Part shown: positions 49,050 to 56,302 of the stretch, in pieces
How positions within the stretch are numbered: position 1 is the stretch's first letter
Layout of the letters: each line of letters starts with the position of its first letter
Assembly (NCBI GenBank): GCA_937136055.1
Contig: CAKZOD010000050.1
Location: forward strand, 1-64,000
Reading direction: 5' to 3'
Length of the DNA: 64,000 nucleotides
DNA from: an uncultured Oceanospirillaceae bacterium
GTDB lineage: Bacteria; Pseudomonadota; Gammaproteobacteria; Pseudomonadales; Balneatricaceae
Program-made: the position numbers and the translations under genes
The notes under the pieces: model-generated
What the model was told of the DNA's origin: nothing
What the model saw: the letters and a program-made list of their open reading frames with translations, nothing else
The model's database searches: none

Positions 49050-49513
49050 TCAAACACTATTTATGGATGGTTTCTCTCTTAGTCAGCACTTCGTTATTTG
49101 CTGCTATTGATACTTATGAGTTTAGTAATGATGCTCAGAGAGAACGCTTTCAGCAACTCAGTGAAGAATTGCGTTGTCCTAAATGTCAAAACCAGAATTT
49201 AGCGGATTCAAATTCGGGCATCGCTAAAGATTTAAAAGACGAGCTTTACCGTATGGTAACGGATGGGCAAAGCACACAGCAGATCACTACCTTTATGGTT
49301 GATAGGTACGGTGAATTTGTATTGTATAAGCCAAAAGTTAATCCTATGACTTATGTCTTATGGTATGGGCCTTTCGGATTATTAGCACTGGGCGCTGTTG
49401 TCGTTTTGATACTGGCACGTAGTAAGAAAACCAAAGTTGCACCCAAAGAGCAGGCTGCTGCAATTGAGCATGAGCAGCGTTTAAAAGATTTATTGGATAA
49501 GAAACATGATTGA
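49046..49513 (+). CDS. ccmH: Cytochrome c maturation protein CcmH
   Basis: 155 residues from the ATG overlapping the ccmG stop; the track start at 48962 lies inside ccmG. Signal peptide, then LRCPKCQNQNLADSNSGIA with the redox pair, then a membrane helix (about 103-122, YGPFGLLALGAVVVLIL). Reductant of apocytochrome thiols together with CcmG. This is the short CcmH form; the TPR part is encoded separately as ccmI. Confidence 0.95.
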   Translation: MIKHYLWMVSLLVSTSLFAAIDTYEFSNDAQRERFQQLSEELRCPKCQNQNLADSNSGIAKDLKDELYRMVTDGQSTQQITTFMVDRYGEFVLYKPKVNPMTYVLWYGPFGLLALGAVVVLILARSKKTKVAPKEQAAAIEHEQRLKDLLDKKHD

Positions 49514-50762
49514 GTTTTGGCTTGGCATCACGTTGTTGACGTTAGTAGCACTGGCGTTTATTTGTCGTCCACTGTTTGGTTCTTTAAAAGCTGTGATTCC
49601 AGAGGCACAAGTAGATAGACAGCAAGAAAATATTGCTATCTTTGAAGAGCGTTTAGCGGAATTAGAATTAGAGCGACAGCAAAACCTGCTCAATGAGCAA
49701 AGTTTTGCTGAGCTTAAATTAGAGCTAGAGAAAAATTTGCTGACAGATGCTGCAGGTGAAAATACGGTCACTGAAACTATTACAAAGTTGAAAAAGCCGC
49801 ATATGTTAATGGTGCTAGCCCTATGCATAAGTTTACCGCTGTTTTCTTTAGGCTTGTACGCCAAGTACGGTAGCTTTGATGACTATATGTGGTCGCTGAA
49901 TAAGAGCAGTTCGCACCAATTACCAGCGGGTGAAAAGCCAACAGCAGAACAAGCAATTGGCTTGTTGGTTAAAGAGCTAGAGCGCAACCCGGGTAACGCA
50001 GAAGGCTGGTATATGCTAGCTGGAGCTTATATGGGTATGAACCAATACGGTAAAGGTGCAGAGTCTTTTGCGAAAGTGCTAGAAATTTTACCTGAGCAAA
50101 CACCACAGTATCCAAGTGTGGTTGGTCAATATGCACAAGCGTTATTTTTCGAGACAGGGCGCGTATCTGATAAAGTAAAAGTACAAATCGATCGAGCGCT
50201 GGGATTAGATGCGAACGAAGTTGTTTCCTTAGGATTATTAGGGATTCAAGCATTTGAAGAGAAGTCTTATCAAACAGCAATTGATTATTGGGAAAAAGCA
50301 TTAGCTAACGCTCAACCTAATGCTGCTCAAGCACTAAAATCAGGTATTGCTAATGCGAAACAAAAGCTTGCTGAAGCTGGAATTACTGCCACAAGTAAAC
50401 AAGTAAAAGCAGAACCTATTGGGGTGGCGCTAGATGTAAGCTTATCTGCTGACTTACAAGGAAAGGTTGATCCTAACGCTATCGTATTTGTTTTTGCTAA
50501 ACCGGTGGATGGAAAAATACCACTGGCAGCGTTGAAATTACGAGTATCTGAACTGCCAAAACAGGTTATTTTAGATGATAGTTATGCAATGATGCCAACA
50601 GCTAAAATTTCTTTGCAGAAAAAGGTTCAAGTTAGTGCTAGAATCTCGTTGTCTGGACAGCCCCAAGCACAATCGGGCGATATTCAATCAGCTCTACTTG
50701 CAATCGATGTTAGTAAAAATCCATTGCCAGTTAAGCTATTGATAAATAAAGTTGTTGAATAG
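49506..50762 (+). CDS. ccmI: Cytochrome c maturation protein CcmI (TPR)
   Basis: 418 residues. Two N-terminal helices (about 3-22 and 98-118) bracket a charged coiled coil (ERLAELELERQQNLLNEQ). TPR repeats (about 150-290, EGWYMLAGAYMGMNQYGKG) bind apocytochromes. A C-terminal beta-rich domain (about 300-418) follows. It overlaps ccmH by eight bases. Last gene of the ccm operon; zipA begins 57 bases later on the same strand. Confidence 0.93.
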   Translation: MIEFWLGITLLTLVALAFICRPLFGSLKAVIPEAQVDRQQENIAIFEERLAELELERQQNLLNEQSFAELKLELEKNLLTDAAGENTVTETITKLKKPHMLMVLALCISLPLFSLGLYAKYGSFDDYMWSLNKSSSHQLPAGEKPTAEQAIGLLVKELERNPGNAEGWYMLAGAYMGMNQYGKGAESFAKVLEILPEQTPQYPSVVGQYAQALFFETGRVSDKVKVQIDRALGLDANEVVSLGLLGIQAFEEKSYQTAIDYWEKALANAQPNAAQALKSGIANAKQKLAEAGITATSKQVKAEPIGVALDVSLSADLQGKVDPNAIVFVFAKPVDGKIPLAALKLRVSELPKQVILDDSYAMMPTAKISLQKKVQVSARISLSGQPQAQSGDIQSALLAIDVSKNPLPVKLLINKVVE

Positions 50763-50819: not shown

Positions 50820-53800
50820 ATGGAAATAGGTTTGCGTGAGTGGTTAATCGTAGGGGCAATAATAGTCATTTTATTGATTGTTATTGATGGCTGGCGCCGT
50901 ATGAGAGCGCAAAGTAATTCCCTAAAAATTGATATCGATGACAAGCTAGCAGATCTTGGGGATGATAATTATAATCCCGAATTGACGTTAGGTACCGCGC
51001 GTGTTTTCAAACCGCAAGATGGGGATAGCGCTCAAGGTGTTGAGCAATCCTCGGATGCTCAACCCGCTGTTGCAACAAAACGCAGTGAACCTGAAGTTTC
51101 CTCCCAAAACATTGATTCTCAGAACAATGCACCTCAAAACCATGCTCCGCAAGGAAGTACTTCTTTAAAAGAAGTCAGCCACAAAGATCAACAGCATACA
51201 AAAGCTGAAGTAATCCAACCAGTTACTGAATCTTCACCTCAGGTAGCAGAAATTGATGACGCACTGATGGCGCCTGTAGCTAAGGCCCAGCAAACGCCAA
51301 AAGCACCATTAGTCACAGACTCAGATATAGAGCCAAACTTGAAATCCAGTTCACATGAATCTGATCTGCTTGATTCTTCTACCGCAGATGCGTTTGATGA
51401 AAATTTAGATGATGGAATGGTGTCGCACTCACGTGTGGCATCACCAAAAGCAGAGCCTGAAGTCACTCAGACAGATACTCAATCCGCTCCTATTGATGAC
51501 AACCAGGCTATCACTAATGATATCGGCTTTTCGGCATTTGATTCTGATAAACCACTTTCTAAAGAAAGCGCAGCCACAGAGCCAGAGTTTGAAGAAGCTA
51601 CAGTTGATAGTAATGTTGAAAAAACGCGAGAAACGCAGGCATCAACACCAGACGCTGATGCTTTTACAGTACCTGATATTTTAAAGAAACAGTCTGGCAA
51701 AAATGTTGAATCTGTTGCCAGTGAAATGCTTGCTGAACGCAATGAGTTTAGTGTTCCAAAAGAACCACTTTTGCATGAAGTGGTGCAAAGCGCTAGTGAT
51801 GAAAATGCAGCATCAGAGAATGCGGTCAGTGCTGAGCAAATTGTCAATGATCTTACAGCGCAACTTGATACGGATTTAAATAGCAACTTAGCTGCAGCGA
51901 CAGATAACACTAACAGTATTGTTAATAATTTATTGAATACTCGAGCGCTTTCTAAGCAAGAGCTTTCTGTTGAAACTGAAGAAGAGCCTTCGCAGCAAAA
52001 ATATAATAATGATGAAATGCCGACAGAGTCGGTGTTAAGACGTCAAGAAGCCGTTGAAGCTCAGGCTCCTTCGCGCTCACAAATTAACTTGGGACCCGAT
52101 AAATTTGAAACGTTACTGGCAGAAAGAGAAAAGGATGGGTTTCTTCCTGAGCCAGATACCGCTTTGCAAACACAAAGTGAGACGTATCCAGTAGAAGAGG
52201 AAGTCATCTCTGAACATGCGGATGTAAACCCAGTTGATGATTACAATGAGGCTGATTTTGATATTAATGAGCATCAACTAGATGACGATGATGAATCTGC
52301 TCACAATTTAATGCCAAACCCGTTTCAGCGTCAATCTAACGAATTAGATCAGGCTGCTAGCTCTGATGAAACAAATAGCACTGATGAAATAAGTAATACT
52401 GATAATCTTGACGGTCAAAGAGATGAGCAGGCAGGGCTATCTGAATCAATAGAGCAGGTTGCACAGAACTCACATGAAACATTAGACCCGCAATCTGAGA
52501 TCGAAGCACTAAAAGCACGACTTAAGGCGCTAGCACCTGATGAATTTGATGCTTTAGAAGAGGGGGCGACAGCGCCTTCTCAAGAAGAAATCAGTGAAGA
52601 TTCAGAGAGCGAAAGCAGCGTTAGCGCAAAAAAATCTGAAAATTTAGATATTATTCCTCAGCGCAGCGAAAACTTTGATCAAATCATTGCCGAGTTAGAC
52701 AAGCAAATTGAAGATCAAGCAGCAGAGAATCAATCGATAGATGACTCAGCAGTCGATCAAGCATCAGAAGTAACTACTGTTATTGATGATGATGTCAATT
52801 TAGAAGATATCGATGATAATATTTCCCACCTAAGCCAAGTCGAATCGATTGAGCAACAAAACATTGAGCCATTAGCAGATCCACTCATGGATGGCTTTAA
52901 AGATGACGGCAGTGCCAATGATTTAATGGCACAGTTCGAACATGATTTACAACTAGATCAGCAAGCGGTTTCTAATGAACTTGATCGCCCAATTTCTGAG
53001 ATACTTAGAACACAGAAAGCACAATCAGTAACGCAAGAAAGCGAACAAGCAGATGAAGTAGCAGAAGATGCTCTGTTAGCGAGCTCTCATGATAATGCGC
53101 TTTCAGAAAGTTTGTTGTTGGGCGAGAACTTTGATGATCAAGATGAAAGTGATTTTTATGAGCAGGATCTTAAACAGCATGCTCAGAATGAAATGGAAGA
53201 TGACGGCATTGATCATGCAAATGATTTAGGCTTTAGTGCATTCGAGCAGGACGTTATTGCACCTGCTTCATCTAATTCAAATGATCATGATAGCGATGAT
53301 CCTTTGATGGCTGGATTCAACGAGCCAGAAGAATATGTACAACAAGATTCTCAATTAGATGATATTGAAGATCAAAACTCTCAGAAAAGTTTATTTAATG
53401 AAGGTGAGCTAGAAGCTGTCAGTGCTGCTGCTGTTGCTCCATCTAAACCAGCTAAAAAGCCTCGTAAAGCCATCGCTAATGTTGACGATCCAAATGTTGT
53501 ATTGATCGTGACTGTTGTTGCTAAAGATCAATACCTCAATGGGGCAGCATTAAGACGTGTTGTTGAAGCATGTGGTATGGAGTTTGGCGATATGGCCGTT
53601 TTTCACCGGTTCGAAGATGGAGCTGATCAGGGAGCTGTGCAATTTAGCATGGCAAATGCGATCAACCCAGGTATCTTCGATATTGAGAATATGGACGAAA
53701 CTTCCACACCTGGCGTGTCTTTCTTTATGTCGATGGATGAGCCTCTCGATCCTAAAAATGCATTAGAGTGCATGATGGCTACCGCTGAAACGGTTGCCAC

Positions 53801-53921
53801 TCACCTCAATGGTGATTTGCTCGATGATGATCGATCAGTCTTACGTCCTCAAACCAAAGAGCATTATCGTGAACGTGTTCGTATTCACGAAATGAATAAA
53901 CTGCGCCAACGTGCTTTGTAA
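50820..53921 (+). CDS. zipA: Cell division protein ZipA with a very long linker
   Basis: 1033 residues, roughly three times the usual ZipA length. One N-terminal helix (about 8-25, IVGAIIVILLIVIDGW) anchors it with the C-terminus in the cytoplasm. The C-terminal FtsZ-binding domain (about 885-1015) is intact: VVLIVTVVAKDQYLNGAALR, a FHRFEDG motif and FDIENMD. The linker is very acidic and Gln/Asn/Ser-rich. It contains recurring short motifs: GFSAF (about 236 and 803), DPLM-GF (about 686 and 826), and DALM (about 145). It tethers FtsZ to the membrane at the division site. The neighbour ligA is the usual one. Confidence 0.9.
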   Translation: MEIGLREWLIVGAIIVILLIVIDGWRRMRAQSNSLKIDIDDKLADLGDDNYNPELTLGTARVFKPQDGDSAQGVEQSSDAQPAVATKRSEPEVSSQNIDSQNNAPQNHAPQGSTSLKEVSHKDQQHTKAEVIQPVTESSPQVAEIDDALMAPVAKAQQTPKAPLVTDSDIEPNLKSSSHESDLLDSSTADAFDENLDDGMVSHSRVASPKAEPEVTQTDTQSAPIDDNQAITNDIGFSAFDSDKPLSKESAATEPEFEEATVDSNVEKTRETQASTPDADAFTVPDILKKQSGKNVESVASEMLAERNEFSVPKEPLLHEVVQSASDENAASENAVSAEQIVNDLTAQLDTDLNSNLAAATDNTNSIVNNLLNTRALSKQELSVETEEEPSQQKYNNDEMPTESVLRRQEAVEAQAPSRSQINLGPDKFETLLAEREKDGFLPEPDTALQTQSETYPVEEEVISEHADVNPVDDYNEADFDINEHQLDDDDESAHNLMPNPFQRQSNELDQAASSDETNSTDEISNTDNLDGQRDEQAGLSESIEQVAQNSHETLDPQSEIEALKARLKALAPDEFDALEEGATAPSQEEISEDSESESSVSAKKSENLDIIPQRSENFDQIIAELDKQIEDQAAENQSIDDSAVDQASEVTTVIDDDVNLEDIDDNISHLSQVESIEQQNIEPLADPLMDGFKDDGSANDLMAQFEHDLQLDQQAVSNELDRPISEILRTQKAQSVTQESEQADEVAEDALLASSHDNALSESLLLGENFDDQDESDFYEQDLKQHAQNEMEDDGIDHANDLGFSAFEQDVIAPASSNSNDHDSDDPLMAGFNEPEEYVQQDSQLDDIEDQNSQKSLFNEGELEAVSAAAVAPSKPAKKPRKAIANVDDPNVVLIVTVVAKDQYLNGAALRRVVEACGMEFGDMAVFHRFEDGADQGAVQFSMANAINPGIFDIENMDETSTPGVSFFMSMDEPLDPKNALECMMATAETVATHLNGDLLDDDRSVLRPQTKEHYRERVRIHEMNKLRQRAL

Positions 53922-54020: not shown

Positions 54021-56302
<2,282 letters not shown>

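Follow-up and report, generated by a model that had tools for sequence, protein, structure and literature searches.

In E. coli, ZipA holds FtsZ at the membrane by means of a single N-terminal membrane anchor and a C-terminal ZipA_C domain, and the ZipA considered here would work alike. The question raised by the zipA locus in the window (the whole 64,000-nucleotide stretch of DNA analysed) is what role might be played by the exceptionally long chain that separates these two regions in a product of 1033 residues, and whether the short hydrophobic motifs recurring within that chain are retained for binding, as the original prediction made from the DNA letters proposed. The open reading frame was intact from ATG to stop codon with no internal stops, and its product is, as judged by sequence, a ZipA orthologue because of concordant family matches, structural matches and synteny. 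The match to ZipA_C (PF04354) gave E = 2.5e-40 and 137.8 bits, and that to TIGR02205 (septum_zipA) exceeded its cut-off; the fold of the C-terminal domain matched 1y2f and 1f47 with TMt values of 0.8–0.9, and sequence comparison likewise recovered structures of E. coli ZipA, 1f47 among them; the gene order ccmI-zipA-ligA was also present in relatives, and the expected ligA neighbour was found adjoining zipA in the window. The N-terminus (MEIGLREWLIVGAIIVILLIVIDGWRR), predicted to form a transmembrane anchor, aligned with the N-termini of ZipAs from Pseudomonas and from the family, with a mean identity across the genus of 83% for residues 1–62. The protein thus resembles E. coli ZipA (PF04354; PDB 1f46, 1f47) in its N-terminal anchor, disordered linker, C-terminal FtsZ-tail-binding domain and adjoining ligA; in E. 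coli, however, the linker is a P/Q-rich PQ region of ~100 residues, whereas here it extends to ~830 residues (~8-fold longer), is acidic and rich in Gln, Asn and Ser, and carries conserved motif islands.

Table 1. Features of the zipA locus, with residue numbers in ZipA and nucleotide positions in the window.
Feature	Residues	Positions	Strand	Evidence or context
zipA	1033 aa	50820..53921	+	between ccmI (49506-50762) and ligA (54024-56090)
Predicted membrane anchor and juxtamembrane segment (N-terminal)	1-62	50820..51005	+	hydrophobic ~aa 8-22, then basic WRRMRAQ
Acidic disordered linker	63-885	51006..53474	+	genus identity 22% vs 83-86% in flanks; low AF2 pLDDT
GFSAF copy 1	236-240	51525..51539	+	kept in 3/6 genus rows covering it
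FtsZ-tail-like island AFTVPDILKKQS	281-292	51660..51695	+	in every genus member covering it; hhalign vs FtsZ tails
IVNNLL island	365-374	51912..51941	+	genus alignment
DKFE.LLAE[RQ] island	426-436	52095..52127	+	77% identity
EIEALKARLKxL island, likely short helix	560-570	52497..52529	+	75% identity
TTVIDDDV.LED island	652-663	52773..52808	+	88% identity, top linker island in genus
DPLMDGF copy 1	687-693	52878..52898	+	local form of family DPL[FM].[DE]; DPLM invariant in genus
Two predicted helices flanking P724	698-720 and 725-746	52911..53057	+	AF2 pLDDT ~77-84 for aa 700-739
PI motif LDRPISEILRTQ, family-wide	721-732	52980..53015	+	P724 conservation; shuffle enrichment; weak FtsZ-tail likeness
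GFSAF copy 2 (LGFSAFEQD)	804-808	53229..53243	+	L803 G804 F805 A807 Q810 invariant, five genus members
DPLMAGF copy 2	827-833	53298..53318	+	DPLM invariant, five genus members
QKSLF island	855-859	53382..53396	+	resembles sliding-clamp-binding consensus QL[SD]LF
ZipA_C, FtsZ-tail-binding domain	894-1019	53499..53876	+	PF04354; E. coli ZipA structures by sequence and fold

The original prediction put the protein at about three times the usual size, an estimate that held relative to the ZipAs of E. coli (328 aa) and Pseudomonas (~287 aa) but not within the genus, where the complete ZipAs of relatives comprised 870, 890, 909 and 936 residues and the window's product was just 10–20% above normal. 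The window's genome is a member of the Nitrincolaceae placed near the Osedax symbiont Rs1; close relatives found among named genomes were Rs1 and one Nitrincolaceae MAG, with Nitrincola, Marinobacterium, Neptunomonas, Amphritea, Pontibacterium, Neptuniibacter and Motiliproteus representing the wider Nitrincolaceae. ZipAs across the family ranged from 376 to 835 residues, and the giant form is therefore a trait of the genus and a long ZipA a trait of the family. One of the genus assemblies (G005) is probably mixed, because it contained both a zipA like that of Rs1 (G003), with near-identical translations, and pieces of a second zipA (L064, L065, L066).

The attribution of the excess length to an acidic, Gln/Asn/Ser-rich linker was borne out by its composition: residues 61–890, ~830 of the 1033, contained 194 Asp plus Glu against 50 Lys plus Arg, with Gln, Asn and Ser together contributing 25%. 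The motifs described earlier were likewise located, namely two copies of GFSAF, two of DPLM (residues 687–690 and 827–830), each followed by xGF, and the related variants DALM (residues 147–150) and NDLMAQF (residues 700–706). Repetition per se was barely above chance, with three repeated 5-mers in the linker where shuffled sequences would give 0.98 (p = 0.09); two occurrences of DPLM.GF were found in none of 3000 shuffles, the pattern having been picked after being seen. DNA-level expansion was rejected as the source of the length, as the only tandem detected was a single 18-bp unit of 2.3 copies lying elsewhere than the repeats, together with short imperfect direct repeats. Matches of the linker to DUF3347 and GspM were weak and fell under their cut-offs.

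Comparison within the genus proved more informative than repetition. Mean identity across the genus was 22% for the linker, while the domains on either side reached 83% and 86%, and within the linker it was very unevenly distributed: nine of ten islands, together with the first GFSAF (18%) amounting to 147 residues, were 52–88% identical and the remaining linker 14%, figures that are descriptive and constitute no test, since the islands were chosen by eye on the same alignment that yielded the values. Both DPLM copies, the second LGF.A..Q and several islands absent from the original prediction were invariant in five genus members, and each genus linker kept at least two DPLM copies. NDLMAQF was kept as [DE]L[MVI].QFE.DL in genus members with long linkers, whereas DALM was kept in none of the genus relatives. 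Conservation in close relatives with long linkers thus extended to both DPLM copies, the second GFSA and NDLMAQF, and not to DALM or the first GFSAF; a general loss of the motifs from near relatives whose linkers are comparably long was looked for and not found, given the invariance across those five members of the DPLM pair and of LGFxAxxQ in its second occurrence. Profiles of the genus islands gave mostly no matches to other Nitrincolaceae ZipAs, and most islands are therefore genus-specific. When a 49-residue segment of the linker was sought across the genus genomes, zipA was the only gene recovered, with a weak second match within the ZipA of G003 and G005.

Two motifs had a wider distribution. 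The first, DPL[FM], occurred 76 times in the family linkers against 5.9 expected, taking the form DPLFDDIP in free-living members and DPLM[DA]G[FY] in the window's genus. The second, hDxxP[IV]xx[LI][ML] (the PI motif, with its proline at residue 724), had not featured in the original prediction and is, on the sequences aligned, the best conserved of the family-wide motifs: P724 was invariant in 26 sequences and nearly so in 41, and the pattern was present in 42 of 58 family linkers against 0.94 expected in shuffles and in none of 39 outgroup linkers from Pseudomonas and Marinobacter, although the ZipA sequences counted are related, so that motif counts do not represent independent events. As the PI pattern had been defined partly on sequences in which it was then counted, an unbiased enumeration of four-position patterns, using one ZipA from each of 16 genera, provided a cleaner test. 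The top types returned were PI..[ILMV][ILMV], preceded by an acidic or basic residue (11 genera against 0.3 expected), and DPL.D (10 against 0.2). DPL[FM] and the PI motif go back to an ancestor shared by most Nitrincolaceae, other motifs having been added in the genus. A tie between the PI motif and possession of a second FtsZ was considered and rejected, weaker variants being present also in single-FtsZ genera.

AF2 modelling of residues 680–1033 returned a confident ZipA_C domain and two linker helices, the second beginning directly after P724, with the remaining chain disordered and pLDDT below 55 (about 45–50) over most of residues 750–870. For L149, a relative whose linker is short, the equivalent model contained just an 8-residue helix after the PI proline (pLDDT 76–78 against ~50 nearby). 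Such a helix, predicted at the PI motif of both homologues with pLDDT 76–84 against ~50 around it, fits a motif that would fold on binding.

The tail-like island (residues 281–292), which had likewise not featured in the original prediction, reads FTVPDILKKQ in the window and FDIPDILK, LDIPDILK or FEVPDILK in relatives, with IVPAILK in Rs1 put in register manually because MAFFT had placed it elsewhere. Comparison of this [IV]PDILK profile with FtsZ tails by hhalign gave a probability of 56% and E = 1.2e-4, a result equalled in 0 of 60 column shuffles and ranked first of the ten islands; second place went to PISEILRTQ, the PI motif as it appears in the genus (E = 0.009; 1 of 60 shuffles). The candidate tail-like linker peptides are AFTVPDILKKQSGK and SNELDRPISEILRTQK, and the FtsZ tails of the lineage are represented by LDIPAFLRRQAD for FtsZ1 and FDIPTFLRRQNE for FtsZ2 of the window's genome. 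In E. coli, residues I374, F377 and L378 of the FtsZ tail matter for ZipA, I374 and L378 matter also for FtsA, MinC and SlmA, and the I374V variant is reported to retain binding of both ZipA and FtsA (PMC8669495, PMC4117426). The Kd of the FtsZ tail for E. coli ZipA is about 20 uM (PMC4117426). All genus members covering the island have V or I, I, and L at these three places. The island shares [IV]P-x-[IF]-L-[KR] in register with the E. coli C-terminal peptide (DYLDIPAFLRKQAD), from which it differs in being located inside the ZipA linker rather than at a chain end and in the replacement of F377 by I.

A single-sequence scan with a 9-residue FtsZ-tail matrix scored ZipA at 8.5 against a background maximum of 10.8 in unrelated proteins of the window; as this failed to separate ZipA from background, it is the comparison of profiles, together with conservation, that carries the case for mimicry. 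Compared over the whole family, the PI motif gave a marginal match to the FtsZ tail (hhalign probability 6.5%), and TESVLRRQ (residues 402–409), considered as a third mimic, was rejected on the grounds that relatives do not keep it. It is possible, if doubtful, that the linker holds a copy of the FtsZ peptide bound by ZipA's own C-terminal domain, which would either compete for that pocket, acting as a brake or producing ZipA–ZipA clusters, or recruit tail receptors such as FtsA. Given its resemblance to the FtsZ tail, [IV]PDILK would be expected to bind the receptors of that tail and not FtsZ itself.

The FtsZ linkers of these Pseudomonadales (loci L031-L060, L101-L120) were themselves found to carry a second tail-like motif (QIELPTVLRR, QLDRPTVMRN; hhalign probability against the tail 95.6%), degenerate in the FtsZ1 of the genus. 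The ELPTVLRR/DRPTVMRN motif and its proposed counterpart in ZipA are alike in being tail-like motifs embedded in a disordered linker; that of FtsZ is clearly tail-like, but the PI motif of ZipA is a poor match both to it and to the tail. Most Nitrincolaceae encode two FtsZ proteins (L101-L120; G000:C102). At the genus loci read, one ftsZ comes after ftsA, and the second, with no ftsA beside it, is flanked by ftsQ and lpxC; the tail of this second copy has diverged in the genus, as exemplified by FDVPTFLRRKSE. In the window's own genome (L101; G000:C102:35500-39500) the ftsQ-lpxC copy is split into two frames of 146 and 269 residues, and this assembly, which is 92% complete, yielded no ftsA and no second ftsZ; an assembly error or gap is probably responsible for both.

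A separate observation concerns the ccmI side of the locus. In ASP10-02a (L170, L185) smc lies between ccmI and zipA, and an SMC-sized open reading frame precedes zipA in Pseudomonas and Marinobacter, whereas the window's genome and the other members of the family have lost smc from the stretch between ccmI (ending at 50762) and zipA (starting at 50820). Searches of Nitrincolaceae outside the ASP10-02a genus recovered no canonical Smc, no intact ScpA (one degraded piece, in G015) and no MukB above cut-off, with MksF in just 2 of 24 genomes searched. The idea of a family devoid of any condensin was overturned by an SMC_hinge search that revealed a JetABC-type complex: JetA of Wadjet type I was present in 31 of 33 Nitrincolaceae genomes outside ASP10-02a, and in the window's genome JetA, JetB and JetC form one operon (L209:1719-7295; G000:C88:80500-88500), the two adjoining open reading frames not being JetD-like. 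The role of housekeeping condensin may fall to a Wadjet-type complex throughout the family.

Returning to the linker, we favour, at a probability of roughly 0.6, its being a multivalent docking strip of selected short motifs at the Z-ring, possibly including a mimic of the FtsZ tail, because most of the islands are 52–88% identical against 14% for their surroundings, the family motifs are enriched, AF2 predicts helices and two islands rank highest in tail-like profile comparisons. The islands are under selection, and the motifs within them may bind proteins; the suggestion that they do so was favoured by conservation and enrichment and disfavoured by the insignificance of the repetition and by the lack of conservation of DALM and the first GFSAF. 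It is plausible, in terms of the motifs identified, that additional divisome partners or the clustering of FtsZ are involved. Within a fast-changing acidic chain, selection preserves a series of short linear motifs; a single chain would offer several weak sites at which partners dock at the Z-ring, and, less certainly, [IV]PDILK and perhaps PISEILRTQ would imitate the FtsZ C-terminal peptide and bind FtsZ-tail pockets, whether those of ZipA_C in cis (a brake) or in trans (a ZipA cluster), of FtsA or of MinC.

An entropic spacer or crowding brush, for which only length and acidity count, with the islands as slowly evolving remnants that bind no partner, would accord with the description of the E. 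coli PQ linker as a flexible tether (PMC6904479), with the range of ZipA lengths in the family, 376–1033 residues when the window's product is included, and with the absence of constraint on most linker residues; it is nevertheless unlikely, as neither such identities in most of the islands nor two motifs far above shuffled expectation would be anticipated of a pure spacer. Binding of the islands to a partner outside the divisome was judged rather improbable, the specific candidate being QKSLF, which could tie ZipA to replicated DNA via the sliding clamp (DnaN). The pattern Q.[SDN][LIMF][FL] was present in 27 of 58 linkers against 3.1 expected and in 0 of 39 from the outgroup, and often sits just before ZipA_C, but it is degenerate, the Q of the QKSLF, QDSLF and QNSLF forms found in several genera has been lost in several others, similar [SD]LF islands lacking Q also occur, and a literature search produced no such link. 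That the islands around residues 698–746 are membrane-binding or coiled-coil helices through which ZipA self-associates appears very improbable: two helices are indeed predicted there and E. coli ZipA homodimerises, but the segment is acidic rather than basic and the shorter homologue has just the 8-residue helix.

The preferred reading, that of a docking strip, would alter the perception of the protein rather than its identity, ZipA itself being known and the conserved linker motifs and tail-like island being new; neither linker motifs nor tail mimicry in ZipA was found in the open literature, a scope outside which most subscription papers fall. ZipA is usually seen as a passive tether for FtsZ in which the linker is unimportant, and conserved motifs, one of them like ZipA's own ligand, would make that linker an active regulatory element. 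If true, this would be a natural case of FtsZ-tail mimicry in a family with two FtsZ proteins, and the lineage of marine bacteria with the tail-like ZipA linker includes a bone-worm symbiont.
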